Positions 22,370 to 33,164 of a DNA stretch of 33,214 nt are shown piece by piece (position 1 is the first letter of the stretch; each line of letters starts with the position of its first letter). The stretch lies in the NCBI GenBank assembly GCA_018396635.1, contig JAGTQE010000015.1, positions 1 to 33,214 on the forward strand. The letters run 5' to 3'. Both the position numbers and the translations under genes were made by a program. Source of the DNA: Candidatus Bathyarchaeota archaeon (GTDB lineage Archaea > Thermoproteota > Bathyarchaeia > Bathyarchaeales > DTEX01). Below the pieces are notes generated by a model, which had not been told where the DNA came from, did not search any database, and saw only the letters and a program-made list of their open reading frames with translations.

Positions 22370-23899
22370 TTGATTGATGAGGAAGAGAATCTTCGCACTA
22401 TTAGCGAGATAAATGAGAAGATAAAGCGAGGCGACGTCGTCGTCTTAACAGCCGAAGAAATGATTAAGCTTGTTGAGAGTAGCGGCCTTGAGGTGGCCGC
22501 CAAAGAGGTTGATGTTGTAACCACGGGAACATTTGGCGCGATGTGCAGTTCAGGGGTCTTCCTAAATTTTGGACACTCAGATCCTCCAATAAAGATGACT
22601 AGATGCTGGTTGAATGATGTCCCGGTTTATAAGGGGCTTGCTGCTGTCGACGGCTATCTTGGAGCTTCCTCCATAAGTGAGACTAGGGGGATAGAGTATG
22701 GTGGGGGGCATGTTATAGAGGATTTAGTCTCTGGTAAGGAGGTTGTTTTGAGGGCTGAGTCCTATGGTACGGACTGCTACCCTAGGCGGCACATAGAGAC
22801 AGTCATAACTATTGATGATTTAAATCAAGCTGTCTTGGTTAATCCGAGAAACTGTTATCAAAGATATGATGCTGCCACAAATAGCTCTGACAGGGTTCTA
22901 TACACTTACATGGGCACCCTCCTACCAAACTATGGGAACGTGACTTTTTCCGGCGCCGGGCAGCTTAATCCGCTCTGTAAAGACCCTAATTACGAGACTA
23001 TTGGTTTCGGGACAAGGATATTTCTCGGAGGTGGAATAGGCTATATAGTTGGCGAGGGAACGCAACACAGCCCCGAATCGGGCTATGGAACACTCATGGT
23101 TAAGGGAGATCTTAAGCAGATGAGCAGCAGATACCTAAGGGGCGCATCCTTCCACCGCTATGGCCCAACCCTCTATGTCGGCATAGGCATACCCATACCT
23201 ATAATAAATATTAGGGTTGCTAAGAGCGCTGCCATGAAAGATGACGAGATCTTTGTTAATATACGTGATTTCGCAGTACCATCCAGACCAGACCTGAGGC
23301 CTGTTGTTAAGAGAGTCTCATATGCTGAGCTTAGGTCTGGAAAAGTATACTTGGGCGATAAGAGTGTGCCATCCTCCTCCCTCTCAAGCTATAAGATGGC
23401 GAGGGAAATATCTGAAGTCCTTAAGAAGTGGATTTCGGAGGGCATGTTCCTCTTAACGGAGCCCCTTGAACCCTTGCCAAGAAAGGGAAGACTTAAACCT
23501 CTCGAGATTAAGAGGAGGGAGCTTAAAGTTGGCGACATAATGAGCCGTAATGTTATTATGGCAAAACCCACGGATGATGTGAAGAGCGCGGCTGCAAAGA
23601 TCATTGAGAAGGGTATAGATCACCTGCCAGTTATCGATGATGAGGGCAAGCTTATTGGCATAGTAACCTCATGGGATTTAGCTAAGGCTATAGCGTATAA
23701 CAAGAGTAGGCTTGAGGAGATTATGACTAGGAAAGTTATAACAGCCTTTGAGAATGAATCTATAGATGTTGTTGTACGTAGAATGGCTCAACATAATATC
23801 TCTGGTGTTCCAGTCGTAGATAGAATGAATCGCGTTATTGGAATACTTACGACTGATGATATTTCCAGAAAAATTGTTGGAGGCAGGAACGTAATATGA
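22370..23899 (+). CDS. Homocysteine biosynthesis protein (DUF39, HcyBio) with CBS pair
   Basis: 509 aa. Residues about 1-390 are the DUF39/COG1900 domain, known from Methanosarcina MA1821, where it is needed to make homocysteine from aspartate semialdehyde and sulfide. TTGTFGAMCSSGVFLNFGHS places a candidate catalytic Cys at 59, with a second conserved-looking Cys at 136 (GTDCYPRR), 77 residues later. Two CBS motifs follow: KVGDIMSRNVIMAKP (from about 387) and LEEIMTRKVITAFENESIDV (from about 443), suggesting ligand regulation. TTG start at 22370 with GGGAGGTT 6 nt upstream. It overlaps the next gene by 4 bp (ATGA) and precedes UPF0280, a classic three-gene set. Confidence 0.93.
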   Translation: MIDEEENLRTISEINEKIKRGDVVVLTAEEMIKLVESSGLEVAAKEVDVVTTGTFGAMCSSGVFLNFGHSDPPIKMTRCWLNDVPVYKGLAAVDGYLGASSISETRGIEYGGGHVIEDLVSGKEVVLRAESYGTDCYPRRHIETVITIDDLNQAVLVNPRNCYQRYDAATNSSDRVLYTYMGTLLPNYGNVTFSGAGQLNPLCKDPNYETIGFGTRIFLGGGIGYIVGEGTQHSPESGYGTLMVKGDLKQMSSRYLRGASFHRYGPTLYVGIGIPIPIINIRVAKSAAMKDDEIFVNIRDFAVPSRPDLRPVVKRVSYAELRSGKVYLGDKSVPSSSLSSYKMAREISEVLKKWISEGMFLLTEPLEPLPRKGRLKPLEIKRRELKVGDIMSRNVIMAKPTDDVKSAAAKIIEKGIDHLPVIDDEGKLIGIVTSWDLAKAIAYNKSRLEEIMTRKVITAFENESIDVVVRRMAQHNISGVPVVDRMNRVIGILTTDDISRKIVGGRNVI

Positions 23900-24285
23900 A
23901 GGTTAAGCTAATATATTCACGTGAGGTCGTTGAAAAGCCTATTCTGGCAAATGTAGTGCTGAGGGCTGGCGTACCAATTAATATACTTGAGGCGAGGGTA
24001 AACGCTCAGAAAGGCGAGTTGATTGTCTCAATACTGGCGGATGAAGATAAAATCAAAGAAGTACTCAACTTATTCAGAGAAGCTGGCGTTCAGGTTCAAG
24101 AATTCGCTGAGACCTTAAGGATAGACTGGGATAAATGCATAGCATGCGGCGCATGCGTATCACCATGTCCAACAGGCGCTCTGAGGTTTAAGGAGGATTG
24201 GTCGATAAAATTCGATGATGAAAAATGTATAGCATGTAAGATCTGTGTTACCGCCTGCCCGGTTAGAGCTATATCAATACCGTGA
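23896..24285 (+). CDS. NIL domain + two [4Fe-4S] clusters (ferredoxin-type), MA1822-like
   Basis: 129 aa. The N-terminal NIL domain (about residues 1-75) is followed by two 4Fe-4S binding motifs: CIACGACVSPCPTGAL and CIACKICVTACPVRAI, each C-x2-C-x2-C-x3-C. The same architecture is found in Methanosarcina MA1822, partner of MA1821 in homocysteine synthesis, where it probably supplies electrons. The start codon overlaps the stop of the DUF39 gene by 4 bp, so translation is coupled. Soluble and oxygen-sensitive by nature, consistent with an anaerobe. Confidence 0.92.
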   Translation: MKVKLIYSREVVEKPILANVVLRAGVPINILEARVNAQKGELIVSILADEDKIKEVLNLFREAGVQVQEFAETLRIDWDKCIACGACVSPCPTGALRFKEDWSIKFDDEKCIACKICVTACPVRAISIP

Positions 24286-25895: not shown

Positions 25896-27089
25896 TTATT
25901 TGGTAGCTGTCCGGATGCCGAGTAGGGTTATTGCTAGAATTGAGAGTGTGATTAGGATTATGGTATATGTGTCTAAATATATTTGTATGCTGTGGGATAA
26001 TATTTGGAGCAGCCCGCTTTCAAGGATATAGCCCAAAAGAGAAGCAGCTAGCGTAGTGCCTAATGCTGAGGCCAGTAGCGATATTGGCGCTATCTTAAGC
26101 GTGAGGTCTCTCACCAAGATCTTTCTCGACGCTCCTATAAATCTTAGGATTCTAATTTCGCGGCTGTGCTGTGATATTAGTGCTTGCGTGGATAGGAGGA
26201 TTACGGATCCGGAGAATATTAGCGTCGCGGCGGAGAGGACTATGATAGTCTCCCTAGTTACACCATACCTCTCCATGTAATCTATTAGAAACCTCTCGGC
26301 CCCTTCAACGCCGATATCCTCAGCCCTGAATCTTATTGGAAGCCATCTTACAGGAGCCTGCTCAAATGATCCCTGTCCGCTTGGCTGGGTCTGCCCTCCC
26401 TCTCGGCTTGGCTCCGTGGATGCCTTTGATATGACGCTTAAGACTTCTTCTTGAACGTTTATATCGTGCACCTTTACCCTGATGATTGTTACGTGGTTGT
26501 ATCCGGCCCCTCGAAGCCACTGCCCAACGTGTAGCGGCGCTATTATTTCGTCGTCTAGTGGGCTGCCTGATGCGAATACCCCCTTAATATGCAGTTCTAG
26601 GCATGTCTGTGAGAGTACTCCTGTGACTAGGACTTTGTCGCCAGCTTTTAGGCCGGTCTTTTCGGAAGCCCTTATTCCAATCATAGCGTAGTTCAATTCC
26701 TTAGGGCTCAGTTTTTTCCCATCAATTATGGATATGCCGTTTATTTTTAGGAACTCTTCTGGGAGGACTCCCCTGAGGAAGATTGGTTCTCCCTTAACTA
26801 TACATGGTGCTATGACCTCTGGGCTGCATGCTAGGACGCTGTCTACAGCCATTATTTTATCGGCGAGGAAGGCTGGTACGAGGCCTGTGAATGGCGTTCT
26901 GCTCCCCATATCATAGACGATGATGACGTTTTCTCCCTCGCCCATATAGGCGCTGAGCCCCTTATAGAAGCTTAGGAGGCTGAGGGCTGTCAGCGAGGAT
27001 AGCATTGAAGAGAGCGTTAAGACTACCATAAACGCTAGGATGCGCCTCAACCTTAGGTATTTGAATTGTGTTAAGCCCAAGCGGAACAC
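25896..27089 (-). CDS. FtsX-like ABC transporter permease (second of a pair)
   Basis: 397 aa. One N-terminal membrane helix (about residues 18-40), a large extracytoplasmic region (about 45-285) and three C-terminal helices (about 285-390) form the FtsX/MacB-type permease topology; SREIRILRFIGASRKILVRD (about 313-332) is the conserved cytoplasmic coupling segment. Its GTG start abuts the stop of the preceding permease gene (TAG|GTG). Such permeases export lipids or proteins or drive surface events with an ATPase partner, but no ATPase gene is present in the window. A Gln/Gly/Ser/Pro-rich linker sits near residues 230-245. Confidence 0.85.
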   Translation of the reverse strand: MFRLGLTQFKYLRLRRILAFMVVLTLSSMLSSLTALSLLSFYKGLSAYMGEGENVIIVYDMGSRTPFTGLVPAFLADKIMAVDSVLACSPEVIAPCIVKGEPIFLRGVLPEEFLKINGISIIDGKKLSPKELNYAMIGIRASEKTGLKAGDKVLVTGVLSQTCLELHIKGVFASGSPLDDEIIAPLHVGQWLRGAGYNHVTIIRVKVHDINVQEEVLSVISKASTEPSREGGQTQPSGQGSFEQAPVRWLPIRFRAEDIGVEGAERFLIDYMERYGVTRETIIVLSAATLIFSGSVILLSTQALISQHSREIRILRFIGASRKILVRDLTLKIAPISLLASALGTTLAASLLGYILESGLLQILSHSIQIYLDTYTIILITLSILAITLLGIRTATK

Positions 27090-28220
27090 CTACAGTAATC
27101 TTTCGGTATACTTCATTTTGGCCGCTCTATGGGCTGGCGGGATACATCCCATGATCGCTGAAAATATTGTTGTGAGAAGGATTTGGAGGGCTTGCTGCGG
27201 CTCGAGGAATGGCGCCATCCTTATGCTTGGAGTAAGCCACGATAATGCCGCTGAGATCATCTGCGTCCCGATAAGTCCCAGGGCTGAGCCTAGAATTGAG
27301 CCTGATGTCGCTACAATAATGATGTAGGAGATTATTAGCGTGAAGATGCTTAGTCTCCTAGCTCCCAGCGCCATGAGCATGCGTATCTCATAGCTTGTTT
27401 CCTCAATGAGTCTCGTTGCTATGATGTATGATGCTGAGGCGACTACAGCGTGTACTGCAAGCGACCAGAAGGCTAGGAATCTGATTATTTGGGTATTGAT
27501 TTGTCTTGCGAATAATGTGGGCTGCTGGGTGCAGACTATTCTAGCGTCCCTCGGCAGCAGCCCAGCCACTTCTTTAAGCGCCTCCGATACGTCTGCGCCC
27601 GCCTTAAGCGAGAACTCTATAAGCGATGCTTCTTCTTCGCCGGTTAGGTTAAATGCCGCCACAATTGGCACTATTATCTCAGAGTCTATTTCTGTTTGGG
27701 TTCTAAAGAGCCCGGTGACGGTGAGGATTAGGCTCCTACCATTATAGGTTAGGTGTATTTTTGATCCAACGCCTATGGAATATGCTTTTGAGACCAGCTC
27801 ACCGATAACAGCCTCAGCCATATTCGTGGCGGCGGATCCATTCAAATACGCTTTCCTCATGGACAAGAATTCTTTAACGTTGCTGACACCTCTAACAAGG
27901 GATTCGAATCTTATTGGGCCGACTGATACGTTTGACCAGAAGATCCTCTCAGCTGTAACATTGCCTATATGTTGGAGGGAACGTAAGCTGTCTGCGAGTA
28001 GGGGGTTGAGTCTGCTATTGCTGATCGACTCTCCTCCCAAGATAACGTATTTTTTCCCAGCTGGCTCCCTTAAGCTGGCTAGGGCTTCTATTTGGGCGTT
28101 TAGGAAGCTGTTAATGGAGTATGCTGAGGCGAGCATGGCGGCGAGTAGCGCTATTATGAGGATTGAGTGAGATGTGTCGTTTCTTCTGAGGAATATTTTT
28201 AGGTAGAGCAAATCCAACAA
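27090..28220 (-). CDS. FtsX-like ABC transporter permease (first of a pair)
   Basis: 376 aa. An N-terminal helix (about residues 17-38), an extracytoplasmic domain, and three C-terminal helices with the coupling segment SYEIRMLMALGARRLSIFTL (about 273-292) define an FtsX-like permease. It is a diverged paralog of the following gene and ends directly against its start, so the two likely form a heterodimer. The assigned start is TTG 28220 with no ribosome site; it may lie elsewhere. The CPBP protease gene ends 39 bp upstream on the same strand, tying the pair to the surface-processing cluster. Confidence 0.83.
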   Translation of the reverse strand: MLDLLYLKIFLRRNDTSHSILIIALLAAMLASAYSINSFLNAQIEALASLREPAGKKYVILGGESISNSRLNPLLADSLRSLQHIGNVTAERIFWSNVSVGPIRFESLVRGVSNVKEFLSMRKAYLNGSAATNMAEAVIGELVSKAYSIGVGSKIHLTYNGRSLILTVTGLFRTQTEIDSEIIVPIVAAFNLTGEEEASLIEFSLKAGADVSEALKEVAGLLPRDARIVCTQQPTLFARQINTQIIRFLAFWSLAVHAVVASASYIIATRLIEETSYEIRMLMALGARRLSIFTLIISYIIIVATSGSILGSALGLIGTQMISAALSWLTPSIRMAPFLEPQQALQILLTTIFSAIMGCIPPAHRAAKMKYTERLL

Positions 28221-28259: not shown

Positions 28260-29036
28260 TTATATTAGGAATGGGAGGACGCTCAATAATATTGTGTTTC
28301 CTACTCCATGCGCTACTGTAGGCGGTATTAGGCTTCGGCCCCTCTTGAAGAGTAGGCCAAAGATTATTCCCGCAGCGAATACGAAGGCTACCTCCAGGGG
28401 TATGCGCCATGTTAGGTGTAGGATGGCGAATATCAGCGATTGGAGTATTAATGCAGGCTTTCCGCCCATATGCTTCTCTAGGCTTGTCATAAGCATCCCC
28501 CTGAAGAGTAGCTCTTCGCAGAAGCCGACGAAGGTGAGCATGTATAGGGCTGTTTGGAGGAAGTGCGCTATGGAGAATGTTGGTGTTGGGGGCGGCGGGC
28601 GCAGTATATAGTATTCGGCTGCGCCTAGCGGTATCCCAGATAATACTCCAATAAAGATATGCTTCAGCCCAGCTTTTCTGAATCCCATCTCAGCCAGCGT
28701 CATGCCTGAGTCTTTTATGTGCCATATGCAGAGGGCCAGTAGAATCGAGTATGTTGCTGGGATGAGCAGTTCTTGGCTCACGAAGAACCATGGTAGCGAG
28801 GAGATGAGGAGAGTGTATATTTGTATTAGGCATATTATTTCTATGCTCTCCCTTAAAGCCTGATTAAGTCTACCGCTGAGTAGTGAGAGCGCTAAGTATA
28901 GGGCTGTAACTGATGCTAGGGCGGAGAGTATTCCTAGGGCTGGGTTTATGAAGGCGAAGAAGTACTGTGTGAGCGTTGTGAGAGCTATAGCTGAGGTCAG
29001 CATTAAGATCTCTATTTTACTCCTCGGTTTCCCCAT
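28260..29036 (-). CDS. CPBP family intramembrane metalloprotease (CAAX protease-like)
   Basis: 258 aa from ATG 29036 (a TTG one codon earlier is possible), with several hydrophobic helices. The conserved motifs of the CPBP/Abi family are in order: EELLFRG (about 174-180), FAILHL with His (about 203-208) and HGVGNT (about 243-248), which provide the Glu and His metal ligands. Family members include Rce1-type prenyl proteases, bacteriocin-immunity proteins and membrane-protein processing proteases. It sits between the glycosyltransferase-archaeosortase fusion and the FtsX pair, so a role in processing membrane proteins of this cluster is possible but inferred. Confidence 0.87.
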   Translation of the reverse strand: MGKPRSKIEILMLTSAIALTTLTQYFFAFINPALGILSALASVTALYLALSLLSGRLNQALRESIEIICLIQIYTLLISSLPWFFVSQELLIPATYSILLALCIWHIKDSGMTLAEMGFRKAGLKHIFIGVLSGIPLGAAEYYILRPPPPTPTFSIAHFLQTALYMLTFVGFCEELLFRGMLMTSLEKHMGGKPALILQSLIFAILHLTWRIPLEVAFVFAAGIIFGLLFKRGRSLIPPTVAHGVGNTILLSVLPFLI

Positions 29037-29101
29037 CAAATTTAAGCCTAGGCCCCCATCTATGGGTTTTGCTTAATTCTCCATTACAGGGCTGCTTATT
29101 G

Positions 29102-31186
29102 TTAAGGTTTTGTTTTCTGGACGCTTCTTATATAGATGTATGTGAATACCATGAAATATATTGGGAAGAGTATGTAGCCTAGGTATTTGTGGGCTGTGAG
29201 GAATGCTTCTAGGCCGTAGTTTGCGCCTATTATGCCCATTATGATTAGTCTTAGTGTTGCTTGGGCTATTGTCCCTAGGCTTCCGGCAGCTAGGAAGGCC
29301 GCTATCTTCCATGGGGGTTTGGGCTGCAAGTCTATTGTTATTAGTGTGAATAGGCATGTGAAGACTGAGAGCGATGTGCTTCCTGCGCAGACGTGGTCTA
29401 TGTAGGCGTTTATCGCTCCGCCTACGGCTGTAGGTATTCTTATGTGTGCTCCGTATGCTGAGGATTGTATGCCTAGGGCTCTTAGGGCTAGGGCTGTTGC
29501 ACCTGCCGAGAATTCTGAGAGCTGCTTGTCGGCGAATGTTCCTATGATTGTTGGTAGGGCTATCCCCGCTATGTAGGCGCATGATATTGCTAGTGGGGTT
29601 AGGCTTCCGAGCGCTGCGAATGCTCCTGAGATGAATATGGATGCTGGTATAGCCGCCGTGAAGAAGTCTTGGGTCTTGAATGTTAGCTGTGTTGTCAGCG
29701 AGGCTATGCATAGTGCTAGGCCTAGTATTGCGTGTGCTGGGCTGGCTGCAATCTTCCCATGGCCCATTATGGCTTGGGCTATATTTCTCCATTTTAGGAT
29801 CAGCCATAGTATGCAGGCTGATAATGTAACCCAGCTGTATAGGAGCTCGTCTTGTATGCGGGCGGCTCTTAATGTGAGGTTGCCTATGGTTGGCAGCATG
29901 TAGATGGCTTGGGCTAATATGGCGGCCGCTATGATCAGGGGTTTTGCTATTTGCGCCCCCCTTAGGCTTTCTTCGGATTCGCCTTTCTTCTTGTTTATGA
30001 GGCTCATGTACATGTTCAGCTCCCTCTCGGCCAGTCTCCTAACATCGTATTCTTCGGCTTTTTCGGCAGCTTTTTCGGCTATGGTTTTTGCTAAATTCCT
30101 ATTCTTTAAGACTTTTATTACTGCATTGGCTATTTGGTTTGGGTTTTCCGGGTCTACCAGGATCCCCGTTTCGCCATCTTTTATGATTTCTGTTATTCCG
30201 CCTACCCTTGTGGCTATGACTGGTTTTGCAGATGCCATAGCCTCTATTATGCTTGTTGAGTGGCCTTCTATAAGGCTTGGGATTACGACTACGGTTGAAG
30301 ATTTTATTAGGCTTGGTATCTGCTCGTATGGGACTAGCCCTAAGAAGGCTACGTGGCTTGCCACGCCAAGAGCCTCGGCGAGACTCTTTAGGCGCTGTTT
30401 TTCCGGGCCTTCCCCTGCTATTATAAGCTTTGCCTTTGGGGCCTCCTCTATTATTTTTGGCATGGCTTCGATTAGGGTTTTTATGCCTCTCTTCTGGACT
30501 AGGCGTCCGTGGTGGAGTATTATGGGCTTGTCTAGCCCGCTTAGTTCCTTTATTGGCTGGGCTTCCTTGAACTTTCTGGTGTCTATTCCTGGGTATGGTA
30601 GCGCCTGTATTTTCTCTTTTGGTATGCCTATGTTTCTCAGCGTTCTGTAGGTGTATTTGTCTTCTACGAGGATTTTATCGTATAGTTTTAGGCGTAGGTA
30701 CGCTTTCTCGGCGGCTGGAATTATCCATGATAGCGGCGGCTTGGCGGCTTTACTGTAGTGTCCTAGGAATGTGCCGTGCATGGTTATTATGAGCGGCTTC
30801 CGGGCTAGTAGTTTTGTTATTGATGCTGGTAGGGCTGATAGGGCGCATAGGCAGTGGACGTGCATTATCTCCGCGCCAGTCTCCTTTACGGCTTTTATCA
30901 GGTGTATGGGTAGCGTGAGCAGGAATAGCGCTCTGGCAACTATGCCATACAATGTTCCATGGCTCTTAAGCCTAGATGTTAAAGTCCCTATTAAGCCGAG
31001 GAGTTCGATTCTCCTCACTTCAAGGTTCCCTTTGCGCTCATGTTTTGGGAGGCCCTTCTCTGAGCATGTTAGGAGCGTTACCTTGGCGCCTAGCTCCGCT
31101 AGGGCTGTGGTAAGCTGATGGAGGCATGTCTCTATTCCGCCCACGTATGTTGGGTATGTGAACTCCCTCACCTTAATAACTCTCAT
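29102..31186 (-). CDS. Fusion: GT4 glycosyltransferase + archaeosortase/exosortase-like membrane domain
   Basis: 694 aa. Residues about 1-395 are a GT-B glycosyltransferase of family GT4: VGGIETCLHQL at the start, a sugar-binding segment around HGRLVQKRGI (226-235), and the E-x7-E motif at E307 and E315. After a charged linker (about 396-412) follow eight or so hydrophobic helices. The last part carries the exosortase/archaeosortase pattern: a Cys in DHVCAGSTSL (C600) where the family has CSG, an Arg in QATLR (R646) where the family has NxxR, and a His in AHKYLGYILF (H666). This is the order and approximate spacing of the proposed Cys-Arg-His transpeptidase residues. It starts 6 bp after the ArnD-like gene. 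The sortase assignment rests on motif spacing, not on a search; a fusion of these two activities is unusual. Confidence 0.8.
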   Translation of the reverse strand: MRVIKVREFTYPTYVGGIETCLHQLTTALAELGAKVTLLTCSEKGLPKHERKGNLEVRRIELLGLIGTLTSRLKSHGTLYGIVARALFLLTLPIHLIKAVKETGAEIMHVHCLCALSALPASITKLLARKPLIITMHGTFLGHYSKAAKPPLSWIIPAAEKAYLRLKLYDKILVEDKYTYRTLRNIGIPKEKIQALPYPGIDTRKFKEAQPIKELSGLDKPIILHHGRLVQKRGIKTLIEAMPKIIEEAPKAKLIIAGEGPEKQRLKSLAEALGVASHVAFLGLVPYEQIPSLIKSSTVVVIPSLIEGHSTSIIEAMASAKPVIATRVGGITEIIKDGETGILVDPENPNQIANAVIKVLKNRNLAKTIAEKAAEKAEEYDVRRLAERELNMYMSLINKKKGESEESLRGAQIAKPLIIAAAILAQAIYMLPTIGNLTLRAARIQDELLYSWVTLSACILWLILKWRNIAQAIMGHGKIAASPAHAILGLALCIASLTTQLTFKTQDFFTAAIPASIFISGAFAALGSLTPLAISCAYIAGIALPTIIGTFADKQLSEFSAGATALALRALGIQSSAYGAHIRIPTAVGGAINAYIDHVCAGSTSLSVFTCLFTLITIDLQPKPPWKIAAFLAAGSLGTIAQATLRLIIMGIIGANYGLEAFLTAHKYLGYILFPIYFMVFTYIYIRSVQKTKP

Positions 31187-31192
31187 GGGGCT

Positions 31193-32041
31193 TTAGTCCT
31201 CCTTGGATGTTAGCCATCTGGCTATCTCGCTCATTGTGGCCGTCCAGAGCTTATCCCTGTTTTCGGCAACATACTTTAGTATTGCTTCTAGCTGGCTTCT
31301 CTTCCAGAGCGCCTCGTAGGATGGATGTATCAGTAGGACTGCCAGCCCGCCGGAGTTGATCTTAGCCTCAATCGATTCTATTATAGCCTTCACCGCCTTG
31401 TTGTCGCTTAGTCCAGTCCAGCTCAGCTCCTCCAGGTTTGGCAGCGTTACTGGTATCTGTATTGTCTTGTAGGCTCTCCCGCCTATTATAGGCTTGAATG
31501 GCGCTTCAGCCCTGAAGTCGCTTCCATATAGGAAGCCGAGCTCATCTAGTAGGCTTAGGGTTTTTGGCGTCCACTTGAATTCCGGTGAGGCGAATCCAAG
31601 GGGCTTTTTGCCGAATACCTGCCTGTATTCATTGTAGCCTCTCATGAAGAGCGCTCTAACTTCTCTAGGCGTCTTTCTACGTATCGATTTAGCCCAGCCA
31701 GCATGATTGTATCCGTGTAGTGCGATCTCATGGCCATTTAGATTGCTTAAGCCCATTTTGGCGCATAGCTCACCCATATCTACTCTTGGATTAGTTAGCC
31801 AGCCTAGAATCGTTTTTAACCCGAACTTTTTAATGGGGCTAAGCCTGAGGTAGCTCTTCAACCTAGACCTATCGAAGCCGATCAGCGTTCTGTCTGGGCC
31901 CATGGGTATGAAGAGTGTTGCCTTAAGACCGTATTCTTCTAGGATTTTTAGTAGCGCTGGAACGCCTTTTAGTAGGCAGTTTGAGGTTTCGACATCGGCT
32001 CTTAGCGTGAAGGCTGCTTTTGAGCCGTTCGGCCACTTCAT
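31193..32041 (-). CDS. Polysaccharide deacetylase, ArnD-like
   Basis: 282 aa. FTLRADVETSN (about residues 11-21) holds the catalytic/metal Asp region of NodB-homology enzymes, and GHEIALHGYNHAGW contains the HxxxH metal-binding pair (H110, H114). The N-terminal half closely follows bacterial ArnD, which deformylates an undecaprenyl-linked amino-arabinose, including the GVPALLKILEEYGLKATLFI and MGPDRT segments. It probably deacylates a lipid-linked or surface sugar. Its start overlaps the preceding gene by 4 bp (ATGA), and the fusion gene follows after 6 bp, suggesting that it modifies the glycan handled by the GT4 domain. Confidence 0.85.
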   Translation of the reverse strand: MKWPNGSKAAFTLRADVETSNCLLKGVPALLKILEEYGLKATLFIPMGPDRTLIGFDRSRLKSYLRLSPIKKFGLKTILGWLTNPRVDMGELCAKMGLSNLNGHEIALHGYNHAGWAKSIRRKTPREVRALFMRGYNEYRQVFGKKPLGFASPEFKWTPKTLSLLDELGFLYGSDFRAEAPFKPIIGGRAYKTIQIPVTLPNLEELSWTGLSDNKAVKAIIESIEAKINSGGLAVLLIHPSYEALWKRSQLEAILKYVAENRDKLWTATMSEIARWLTSKED

Positions 32042-32439
32042 CCCTCATCGGCTCTAATGTAATGTTTTACTTCATCTATTAGCTGTTCTCCCCACCAGAT
32101 CTTAATATTTACAATTATCGTTTCATTTTTCTCGGGCTTTATGTTGAGGGCGTATGTGAAGCTGTTCGGCGGCTCAATATATCCCGTATCCGAGTAGCTG
32201 ACTACGCCTATTGAGGAGTTATGGATCATGGAGTAGCGGTAGAATCCGCTTATAGGGCTTTTCAATGTGAAGCCGACAATCCAGAGGTCGGCGACCTTAA
32301 TTCGGAAATGATCGACCTTCACATCGGTCTCCTGATGCATAATCCTCATGAAGGATGATACCGCTAAAGCTAACGCAACAGCTAAAGCTATCATCGTGAC
32401 TAGGAGAAGCATATGGATTCTAGGCTTCAAAGAGATCAT
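32038..32439 (-). CDS. Membrane-anchored small extracytoplasmic protein, family unknown
   Basis: 133 aa. A short basic N-terminus is followed by one hydrophobic helix (about residues 10-30), then a mainly beta-type extracytoplasmic domain with two N-glycosylation sequons (N74-S-S, N105-E-T). It looks like a signal-anchored surface protein; the N-terminus is not a clear type III pilin signal. Both ends overlap neighbours by 4 bp (ATGA), so it is translationally coupled between the putative sorted protein and the deacetylase. It may be a partner or chaperone of the substrate. No family recognised. Confidence 0.7.
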   Translation of the reverse strand: MISLKPRIHMLLLVTMIALAVALALAVSSFMRIMHQETDVKVDHFRIKVADLWIVGFTLKSPISGFYRYSMIHNSSIGVVSYSDTGYIEPPNSFTYALNIKPEKNETIIVNIKIWWGEQLIDEVKHYIRADEG

Positions 32440-33164
32440 GCCCTAAACCTTACAATACGCCTCTTCAAAATAAAGTAGGCTGAGAGCAGGGCTGGCGGCA
32501 GAAAGACTGCGCCGAACGGAAACTCAGATACTTGCTCAGCGCTGATCTGACTTATCGGCGGGGTTATAATCCGCGTCTTTTGATTAACCCCATCATAATA
32601 GAAAGTGGCACTTTGACCCTGACCCTGGAAGCCATATGATGAAATAGTAACATCTATAAATAATCTTGAGCCAGATTTAATACTTACACTTTCTCCTTTG
32701 TATACTGTAATATTGTACCAGGTTATTGTATCCTCAGAAGGTGTTAGGCCCGTTCTTTGACCTGTTACGATAGGTATCCTATGACCAGTAGCATTTATAT
32801 AACCGAACGTAAAAGAAACATTAACAGCGATCTTCCAGTGAGTCCTCATAATCCAGAACGTGAAATTATACATTCCTGAACCTATAGTCCAGTCATTTTG
32901 CGCTGCTGTCTCATTAACCCATCTTCGAGTGGCGCTACCATCGCCTTCTATGGTTATGGTTTCTGCGGTGGCGTTTGTTGGCTCTGCTGTTGTGAGGTTG
33001 TTAGATGTGTATCTTCTGAGGTATAGTGTGTCATCGTTTCCCTTCTCGGCTTGAGTGGATATTTTGCTGGGTGTGCTCTTTGCCGCCGCCTGCTTCATGG
33101 CCGCCATAGGAGCCGCCAATAACGCTAGGATGAGCATGGATACAATTAATACAATCCTCCTCAT
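32436..33164 (-). CDS. Secreted protein with PEF/EFP-type C-terminal sorting signal, putative archaeosortase substrate
   Basis: 242 aa. A Sec signal peptide (RR, hydrophobic stretch to about residue 19, AAA region) opens the protein. The mature part is Ser/Thr-rich and holds seven N-x-S/T sequons (N56, N64, N84, N100, N115, N124, N151), implying heavy N-glycosylation. The last 30 residues form a tripartite tail: SEFPFG (213-218), a hydrophobic helix (219-233) and a basic cluster KRRIVRFR (234-241). This resembles the PEF/EFP-type C-terminal signals recognised by archaeosortases, and the fusion gene carrying an archaeosortase-like domain is three genes downstream. It overlaps the next gene by 4 bp. 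GTGAT upstream of ATG 33164 is the ribosome site. Confidence 0.75.
   Translation of the reverse strand: MRRIVLIVSMLILALLAAPMAAMKQAAAKSTPSKISTQAEKGNDDTLYLRRYTSNNLTTAEPTNATAETITIEGDGSATRRWVNETAAQNDWTIGSGMYNFTFWIMRTHWKIAVNVSFTFGYINATGHRIPIVTGQRTGLTPSEDTITWYNITVYKGESVSIKSGSRLFIDVTISSYGFQGQGQSATFYYDGVNQKTRIITPPISQISAEQVSEFPFGAVFLPPALLSAYFILKRRIVRFRA

Follow-up and report, generated by a model that had tools for sequence, protein, structure and literature searches.

A GT4 glycosyltransferase–archaeosortase fusion in a predicted surface-anchoring gene cassette of Bathyarchaeia

Introduction

The acceptor onto which exosortases and archaeosortases transfer their substrates is a long-standing question, and that of exosortases has been called 'an unidentified compound' (PMC7468200). 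For the archaeosortase ArtA, archaetidylethanolamine is the proposed target: the ArtA thioester would be resolved by this amine lipid, which is made by PssA and PssD, and artA clusters with archaetidylethanolamine synthesis genes in Methanosarcina (PMC7157517). In the type IX system, an amide bond links cargo proteins to a deacetylated amino sugar (PMC7468200). Among bacterial exosortases, epsH homologues lie among exopolysaccharide genes in genomes that also carry PF00534 and PF01522 proteins, and EpsH–EpsI fusions have been published (PMC1569441). The curated family TIGR04162 consists of an exosortase fused to a CPBP protease.

Here we describe a locus in a bathyarchaeal contig of 33,214 nucleotides (the window, meaning the whole stretch of DNA analysed) in which a GT4 glycosyltransferase and an archaeosortase domain are encoded as one polypeptide. 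The enzyme family is known, but this architecture is new, as is the gene cassette that holds it.

Results

Domain organisation of the fusion protein

The fusion is encoded by a single uninterrupted frame of 694 codons that runs from 31186 to 29102 on the minus strand, with a GGAGG sequence 11 nt ahead of its ATG; the plus strand in this interval is full of stops.

29102..31186, minus strand: GT4 glycosyltransferase–archaeosortase fusion, 694 aa (Pfam and NCBIfam matches above cut-offs, orthologues, conservation of C600, R646 and H666)
29387..29389, minus strand: C600, predicted nucleophile, at the start of helix 603–620 after a beta hairpin (alignment, AlphaFold model)
29249..29251, minus strand: R646, conserved Arg (alignment)
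29189..29191, minus strand: H666, conserved His of the third motif (alignment)

The GT4 domain occupies residues 1–400 and is followed by a linker (400–410) and an eight-helix archaeosortase domain (411–690). The N-terminal half matched PF13439 (residues 15–204, E 4e-19) and PF00534 (residues 208–375, E 8e-47), both above the Pfam gathering score, and these two profiles together with the motif E307-x7-E315, whose glutamates are invariant among the fusions, place it in the GT4 family. In the C-terminal half, PF09721 matched residues 450–684 (E 5e-15; 56 bits against a Pfam cut-off of 25.7), and the C-terminal domain alone scored 36.3 bits with the NCBIfam model TIGR04178 (cut-off 23), so that by curated profile cut-off it belongs to the archaeosortase/exosortase family. 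None of the archaeosortase subfamily models reached its cut-off with this domain, TIGR02602, TIGR03110 and TIGR03762 all remaining below, and the XrtA model TIGR03109 was absent from its matches; with a partner tail that reads EFP, the system falls outside the XrtA/PEP-CTERM group. The original prediction had described one 694-residue chain carrying E307-x7-E315, C600, R646 and H666, all of which are found at those positions on the minus strand, and the profile scores bear out its assignment of the two halves. Sequence comparison thus confirmed the protein as a predicted GT4 glycosyltransferase covalently joined to an exosortase/archaeosortase domain.

Structural matches of the GT4 part were MshA, BshA, PimA and PglA, its fold being closest to the first three of these enzymes. 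MshA and BshA act together with a deacetylase, and PimA acts on a phospholipid. A PDB fold search with the archaeosortase domain returned nothing significant and hence no solved template. The two AlphaFold models had a mean pLDDT of 78.8 for the whole fusion and 85.9 for the archaeosortase domain, with values >90 across most of residues 560–690.

Catalytic residues and membrane topology

To assess the conservation of the predicted catalytic residues, the three fusions were aligned with 24 other archaeosortase domains, either unfused or in other kinds of fusion (n = 27). C600 and H666 were invariant (27/27 each), and R646 was Arg in 25 domains and Lys in the remaining two; the triad named in the original prediction is therefore conserved in homologues, in the Cys, Arg, His order expected of the family. 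The neighbourhoods of the three motifs are kept between fusions that share 56% overall identity. The Asn of the N-x-L-R motif, present in all 24 other domains, is replaced by Ala (A643) in 3/3 fusions. As this conserved position is none of the three predicted catalytic residues, we did not take the replacement as disqualifying.

A hand count guided by the AlphaFold model gave eight membrane helices from residue 411 onwards. If the GT4 domain lies in the cytosol, this topology would have C600 and H666 facing outwards and the K/R-rich loops inside.

The gene cassette around the fusion

The fusion lies in a compact run of minus-strand genes.

32436..33164, minus strand: secreted protein, 242 aa, predicted substrate, with the C-terminal tail SEFPFG, a hydrophobic stretch and RR (G125 orthologue at the same place)
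32038..32439, minus strand: small protein, 133 aa, with an N-terminal membrane anchor, cassette-specific (G125 and G277 orthologues at the same place)
31193..32041, minus strand: ArnD-like deformylase/deacetylase, 282 aa (NF011923, PDB 8t0j, G125 and G277 orthologues)
28260..29039, minus strand: CPBP/Rce1-like intramembrane glutamic protease, 259 aa (PF02517; orthologues beside the fusion in G004 and G277)
27090..28220, minus strand: FtsX-type permease, probably not part of the core cassette (found in G004 but not in G277)
25896..27089, minus strand: second FtsX-type permease, probably not part of the core cassette (found in G004 but not in G277)

Read along the minus strand, the order in the window is substrate, small protein, ArnD-like enzyme, fusion and CPBP protease. 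The substrate and small-protein genes overlap by 4 bases, as do the small-protein and ArnD-like genes, while gaps of 6 and 62 bases separate the fusion from the ArnD-like and CPBP genes, respectively. Overlapping parts of this order recur in three other genomes: substrate, small protein, ArnD-like enzyme and GT4 start in G125; small protein, ArnD-like enzyme, fusion and CPBP in G277; and fusion and CPBP, then the FtsX permeases as in the window, in G004. All five core genes stand on one contig in the window only, since the loci in G004, G125 and G277 are cut by contig ends. Orthologue identities were 41–46% for the small protein, 63–75% for the ArnD-like enzyme, 63–70% for the CPBP protease and 38% for the substrate. 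Further along the window, at 22370–24285, a homocysteine biosynthesis HcyBio-CBS protein is followed by a NIL-ferredoxin, forming a sulfur-assimilation pair.

The predicted substrate ends in a tripartite C-terminal signal that is shared by its G125 orthologue at the same locus position (SEFPFG in the window, VPEFPAG in G125, with a hydrophobic stretch and then basic residues), the arrangement known from archaeosortase signals. The tail matched none of the curated CTERM models, and BLAST, which is weak for such short tails, found no further copies in the genome. No substrate homologue was found in G004 or G277, where both contigs stop before that gene. The CPBP protein scored 73.5 bits with PF02517 (cut-off 22.4), and its G004 and G277 orthologues keep EELLFR, H208 and H244; its Mrt_core score (NF040914) was 45.7 against a cut-off of 100, and it stayed below the cut-offs of all Mrt models, which does not assign it to the myxosortases. 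The identification of the locus as a sorting cassette is well supported.

The ArnD-like enzyme

The best NCBIfam match of the adjacent enzyme was NF011923 (ArnD; 99 bits, E 3e-28, over 250 residues), and its closest solved structure was ArnD 8t0j (E 1e-15). The equivalog cut-off of NF011923 is 382, and we therefore term the enzyme ArnD-like rather than ArnD. It also matched TIGR03006 weakly (21 bits, against 99 for ArnD). The H-x3-H motif and the C-terminal His are conserved. The first motif reads D-x-E in the ArnD-like enzymes of the fusion clade and D-x-D in ArnD and in the G311 homologue. The substrate of bacterial ArnD is a lipid-linked amino sugar.

With the three orthologues as a profile, genes of this kind were found in 2 of the 257 genomes of the class (G000, G125) and in 3 of 398 across the phylum (G000, G277, G311), the two sets overlapping. 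Each of these four genes adjoins this GT4, and an archaeosortase lies beside or near the ArnD-like gene in all three loci with a long enough contig. The gene is missing from the G004 assembly because the contig ends inside the fusion.

Distribution of the fusion

The wider search for GT4–archaeosortase fusions identified two more, both in draft, MAG-type assemblies of many contigs like the other genomes studied. The first, in another genome of the same genus (G004, L073, record JZ_bin_23), is 75% identical with its start cut by a contig end; the second, in a genome of another class (G277, L063, record SKYB62), is full length and 56% identical. In another family of the same order (G125, L086), the GT4 start of the fusion is followed by the contig end. 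The GT4 domains of the window, G004, G277 and G125 form one clade (100/99). The distribution is patchy, with the fusion present in 2 of the 11 genomes searched in the genus. A contig search with a three-row alignment matched G004 and G277 only; the same search with a single C-terminal sequence gave no match, and none was found in the viral contigs searched. Outside the phylum, GT–archaeosortase fusions were sought by these two narrow contig pattern scans only.

An unfused version of the partnership

In a genome of another class (G311; L105, contig C142), ArnD-like, GT4 and archaeosortase genes stand side by side unfused, the stand-alone archaeosortase being read divergently from the other two. 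The 16-kb contig also encodes a CPBP protein, a second GT4, a type I phosphodiesterase, an XrtA-like deacetylase (TIGR03006, 117 bits) and a UDP-GlcNAc 2-epimerase (wecB; TIGR00236, 353 bits, over cut-off). Identity to the window proteins is 34% for the GT4, 34% over 161 residues for the archaeosortase and 33% for the ArnD-like enzyme, and the G311 archaeosortase falls, on a long branch, into a group that also holds the fusions and three other archaeosortases (96/93). The existence of this partnership in unfused form argues for a shared function, and the G311 envelope locus is possibly the ancestral, unfused anchor pathway.

Other archaeosortases

Two groups of long PF09721 proteins were considered as further GT fusions and ruled out. 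In about 40 genomes of the order (L013–L042), proteins of ~690–755 aa combine an N-terminal archaeosortase with a zinc ribbon and a further ~350 residues whose end weakly matches a winged helix, with no GT domain; we found no description of this architecture in the literature. Two archaeosortase–zinc-ribbon proteins (L071:1573-3747 in G423 and L070:351-2615 in G473) have Ser in place of the catalytic Cys (GEPSSGLFS against DIACSGIYS) and keep the Arg and His motifs. In the ~550 aa proteins of other classes (L064–L069; G579, G457, G546, G534, G522 and G408), PF09721 is the only domain, and the C-terminal extension had no Pfam match in the three tested.

Five stand-alone archaeosortases (L061, L072, L076, L078 and L080) each adjoin one protein with an EF motif, a helix and a basic tail. 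The window genome's own stand-alone archaeosortase, on contig C9, is one of the five. From gene order and tail features, we regard these as predicted one-sortase-one-substrate pairs.

The original prediction took known archaeosortases to be stand-alone membrane proteins, which is too strong in view of TIGR04162, the EpsH–EpsI fusions (PMC1569441) and the ~700-residue zinc-ribbon proteins common in this order. In the open-access literature searched, we found no paper naming a GT–exosortase fusion or describing the present architecture.

Discussion

We propose, with about an even chance of being right, that the cassette is self-contained and serves surface anchoring: the GT4 domain and the ArnD-like enzyme would together produce a glycolipid bearing a free amine, to which the archaeosortase would join the C-terminus of the partner protein. 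More tentatively, and at somewhat under even, we suggest a minimal archaeal GPI-like pathway in which the GT4 of the same polypeptide and its ArnD-like partner would supply the acceptor, a de-N-acylated amino-sugar lipid, for one dedicated surface protein. The amino-sugar nature of the acceptor is what we infer. The GT4 domain would transfer an N-acyl amino sugar onto a membrane lipid acceptor at the cytosolic face, the ArnD-like enzyme would strip the acyl group to leave a free amine, and the glycolipid would be flipped to the outer face. There, C600 would attack the partner protein at the EFP site to form a thioester, which the sugar amine would resolve, so that an amide bond would hold the protein on the glycolipid. 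Disposal of the released tail, or further processing of the partner protein, may fall to the CPBP protease. With the maker of the acceptor and the transpeptidase in one chain, acceptor supply would be coupled to sorting.

This glycolipid reading accords with the literature on archaetidylethanolamine and ArtA (PMC7157517) and on the type IX amide link (PMC7468200). It is also favoured by both domain profiles being over cut-off, the further fusions of G004 and G277 and the GT4 start in G125, the ranking of ArnD as the best NCBIfam and PDB match of the adjacent enzyme, the near-exclusive pairing of the ArnD-like gene with this GT4, the unfused G311 version, the matching position of an EFP-tailed substrate gene in two lineages, the topology (eight helices, GT4 predicted inside and C600 outside) and a GT4 fold near MshA, BshA and PimA. 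Against it stands the fact that GT4 enzymes require a pre-formed acceptor, yet neither a lipid-carrier enzyme nor a flippase was found within the cassette. The ArnD-like enzyme scores far below the ArnD equivalog cut-off and has D-x-E in place of D-x-D, so its substrate may differ. The Ala in N-x-L-R of the fusions, the tail without a curated CTERM match and the presence of all five core genes on one contig in the window only also weigh against the reading, and the link to G311 rests on 33–34% identity and long branches.

The main rival likewise takes the locus to be a dedicated archaeosortase cassette, but lets the GT4 and ArnD-like enzymes act in assembling a surface glycan or in decorating the substrate, with another acceptor such as archaetidylethanolamine, so that the fusion would merely co-localise secretion and glycan assembly. 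The exopolysaccharide setting of the bacterial epsH homologues and the weak TIGR03006 match of the window's ArnD-like enzyme fit this, and the second GT4, XrtA-like deacetylase and UDP-GlcNAc 2-epimerase of G311 are as expected of a glycan locus. The window cassette, however, holds one GT4 and neither polymerase nor export gene, and fusion to just one GT4, strictly paired with the ArnD-like gene and not with glycan genes, fits a short anchor better; we consider the rival unlikely, although it retains appreciable weight.

It is considerably less probable that the archaeosortase domain no longer sorts and serves the GT4 as a membrane anchor or sugar-related module, a myxosortase-like CPBP enzyme being the true sorter of the EFP protein. 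CPBP myxosortases do cut C-terminal tags (PMC11980579), the window enzyme has protease motifs and a sub-threshold Mrt_core match, and all fusions carry the Asn-to-Ala change; but C600 and H666 are fully conserved, R646 and the motif surroundings are kept in fusions at 56% identity, and stand-alone archaeosortases likewise adjoin EF-tailed proteins. An assembly or annotation artefact of two neighbouring genes, a concern with draft assemblies, has a negligible probability: the same fusion and junction occur without stop or frameshift in the separate G004 and G277 assemblies, which refutes it, and the window gene is a single frame with a good start site.

Returning to the glycolipid reading, the original prediction suggested that the enzyme may attach its substrate to a glycan or lipid-linked sugar that the same polypeptide produces. 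The ArnD-like gene, the operon substrate and the unfused G311 version lend this real support, and the reaction itself we infer; that mechanistic guess is plausible but unproven. A GT fusion with a strictly paired, putatively amine-exposing partner and one dedicated predicted substrate offers a concrete candidate for the acceptor, and the cassette is a compact gene set for testing it. The mechanism would extend the published ArtA and amine-lipid idea (PMC7157517) and match type IX amide chemistry (PMC7468200).

Relation to known systems

The window domain shares the C-R-H motifs, about eight membrane helices and a partner with a C-terminal motif, helix and basic tail with the archaeosortase/exosortase family (PF09721, TIGR04178; ArtA, ArtC, XrtG), whereas it sits behind a GT4, has Ala for Asn in N-x-L-R and reaches no subfamily cut-off. 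In haloarchaeal and Methanosarcina ArtA with PssA/PssD, the archaeosortase is genetically tied to enzymes for an amine lipid, the proposed acceptor (PMC7157517); that system has separate genes and an amine carried by a phospholipid head group, whereas in the window the amine would be on a sugar whose maker is fused to the sortase. The bacterial PEP-CTERM/XrtA exopolysaccharide system similarly associates a GT4, a polysaccharide deacetylase and an exosortase (PMC1569441), but unfused and with a PEP tail rather than EFP, and the window deacetylase is nearer to ArnD than to TIGR03006 (99 against 21 bits).

Bacterial ArnD resembles the window enzyme over 250 residues, including H-x3-H and the C-terminal His, and differs in the score (99 against 382), in D-x-D for D-x-E and in that the cassette has no other Arn gene. 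The pairing of exosortase with CPBP protease, and the CPBP domain itself, are shared with exosortase E/protease (TIGR04162) and the myxosortases, while the window CPBP is a separate gene below the Mrt cut-offs. The likeness to eukaryotic GPI anchoring (PIG-A, PIG-L, GPI transamidase) is one of logic, not homology: a GT4 step and de-N-acetylation, with a protein C-terminus transamidated to a lipid-linked amine. The amine used in GPI is that of ethanolamine, not glucosamine, and the window transamidase and deacetylase are not known to be homologous to their GPI counterparts. The type IX linking sugar (Wbp/Vim) follows the same logic as that proposed here, a protein C-terminus being joined to a deacetylated amino sugar (PMC7468200).
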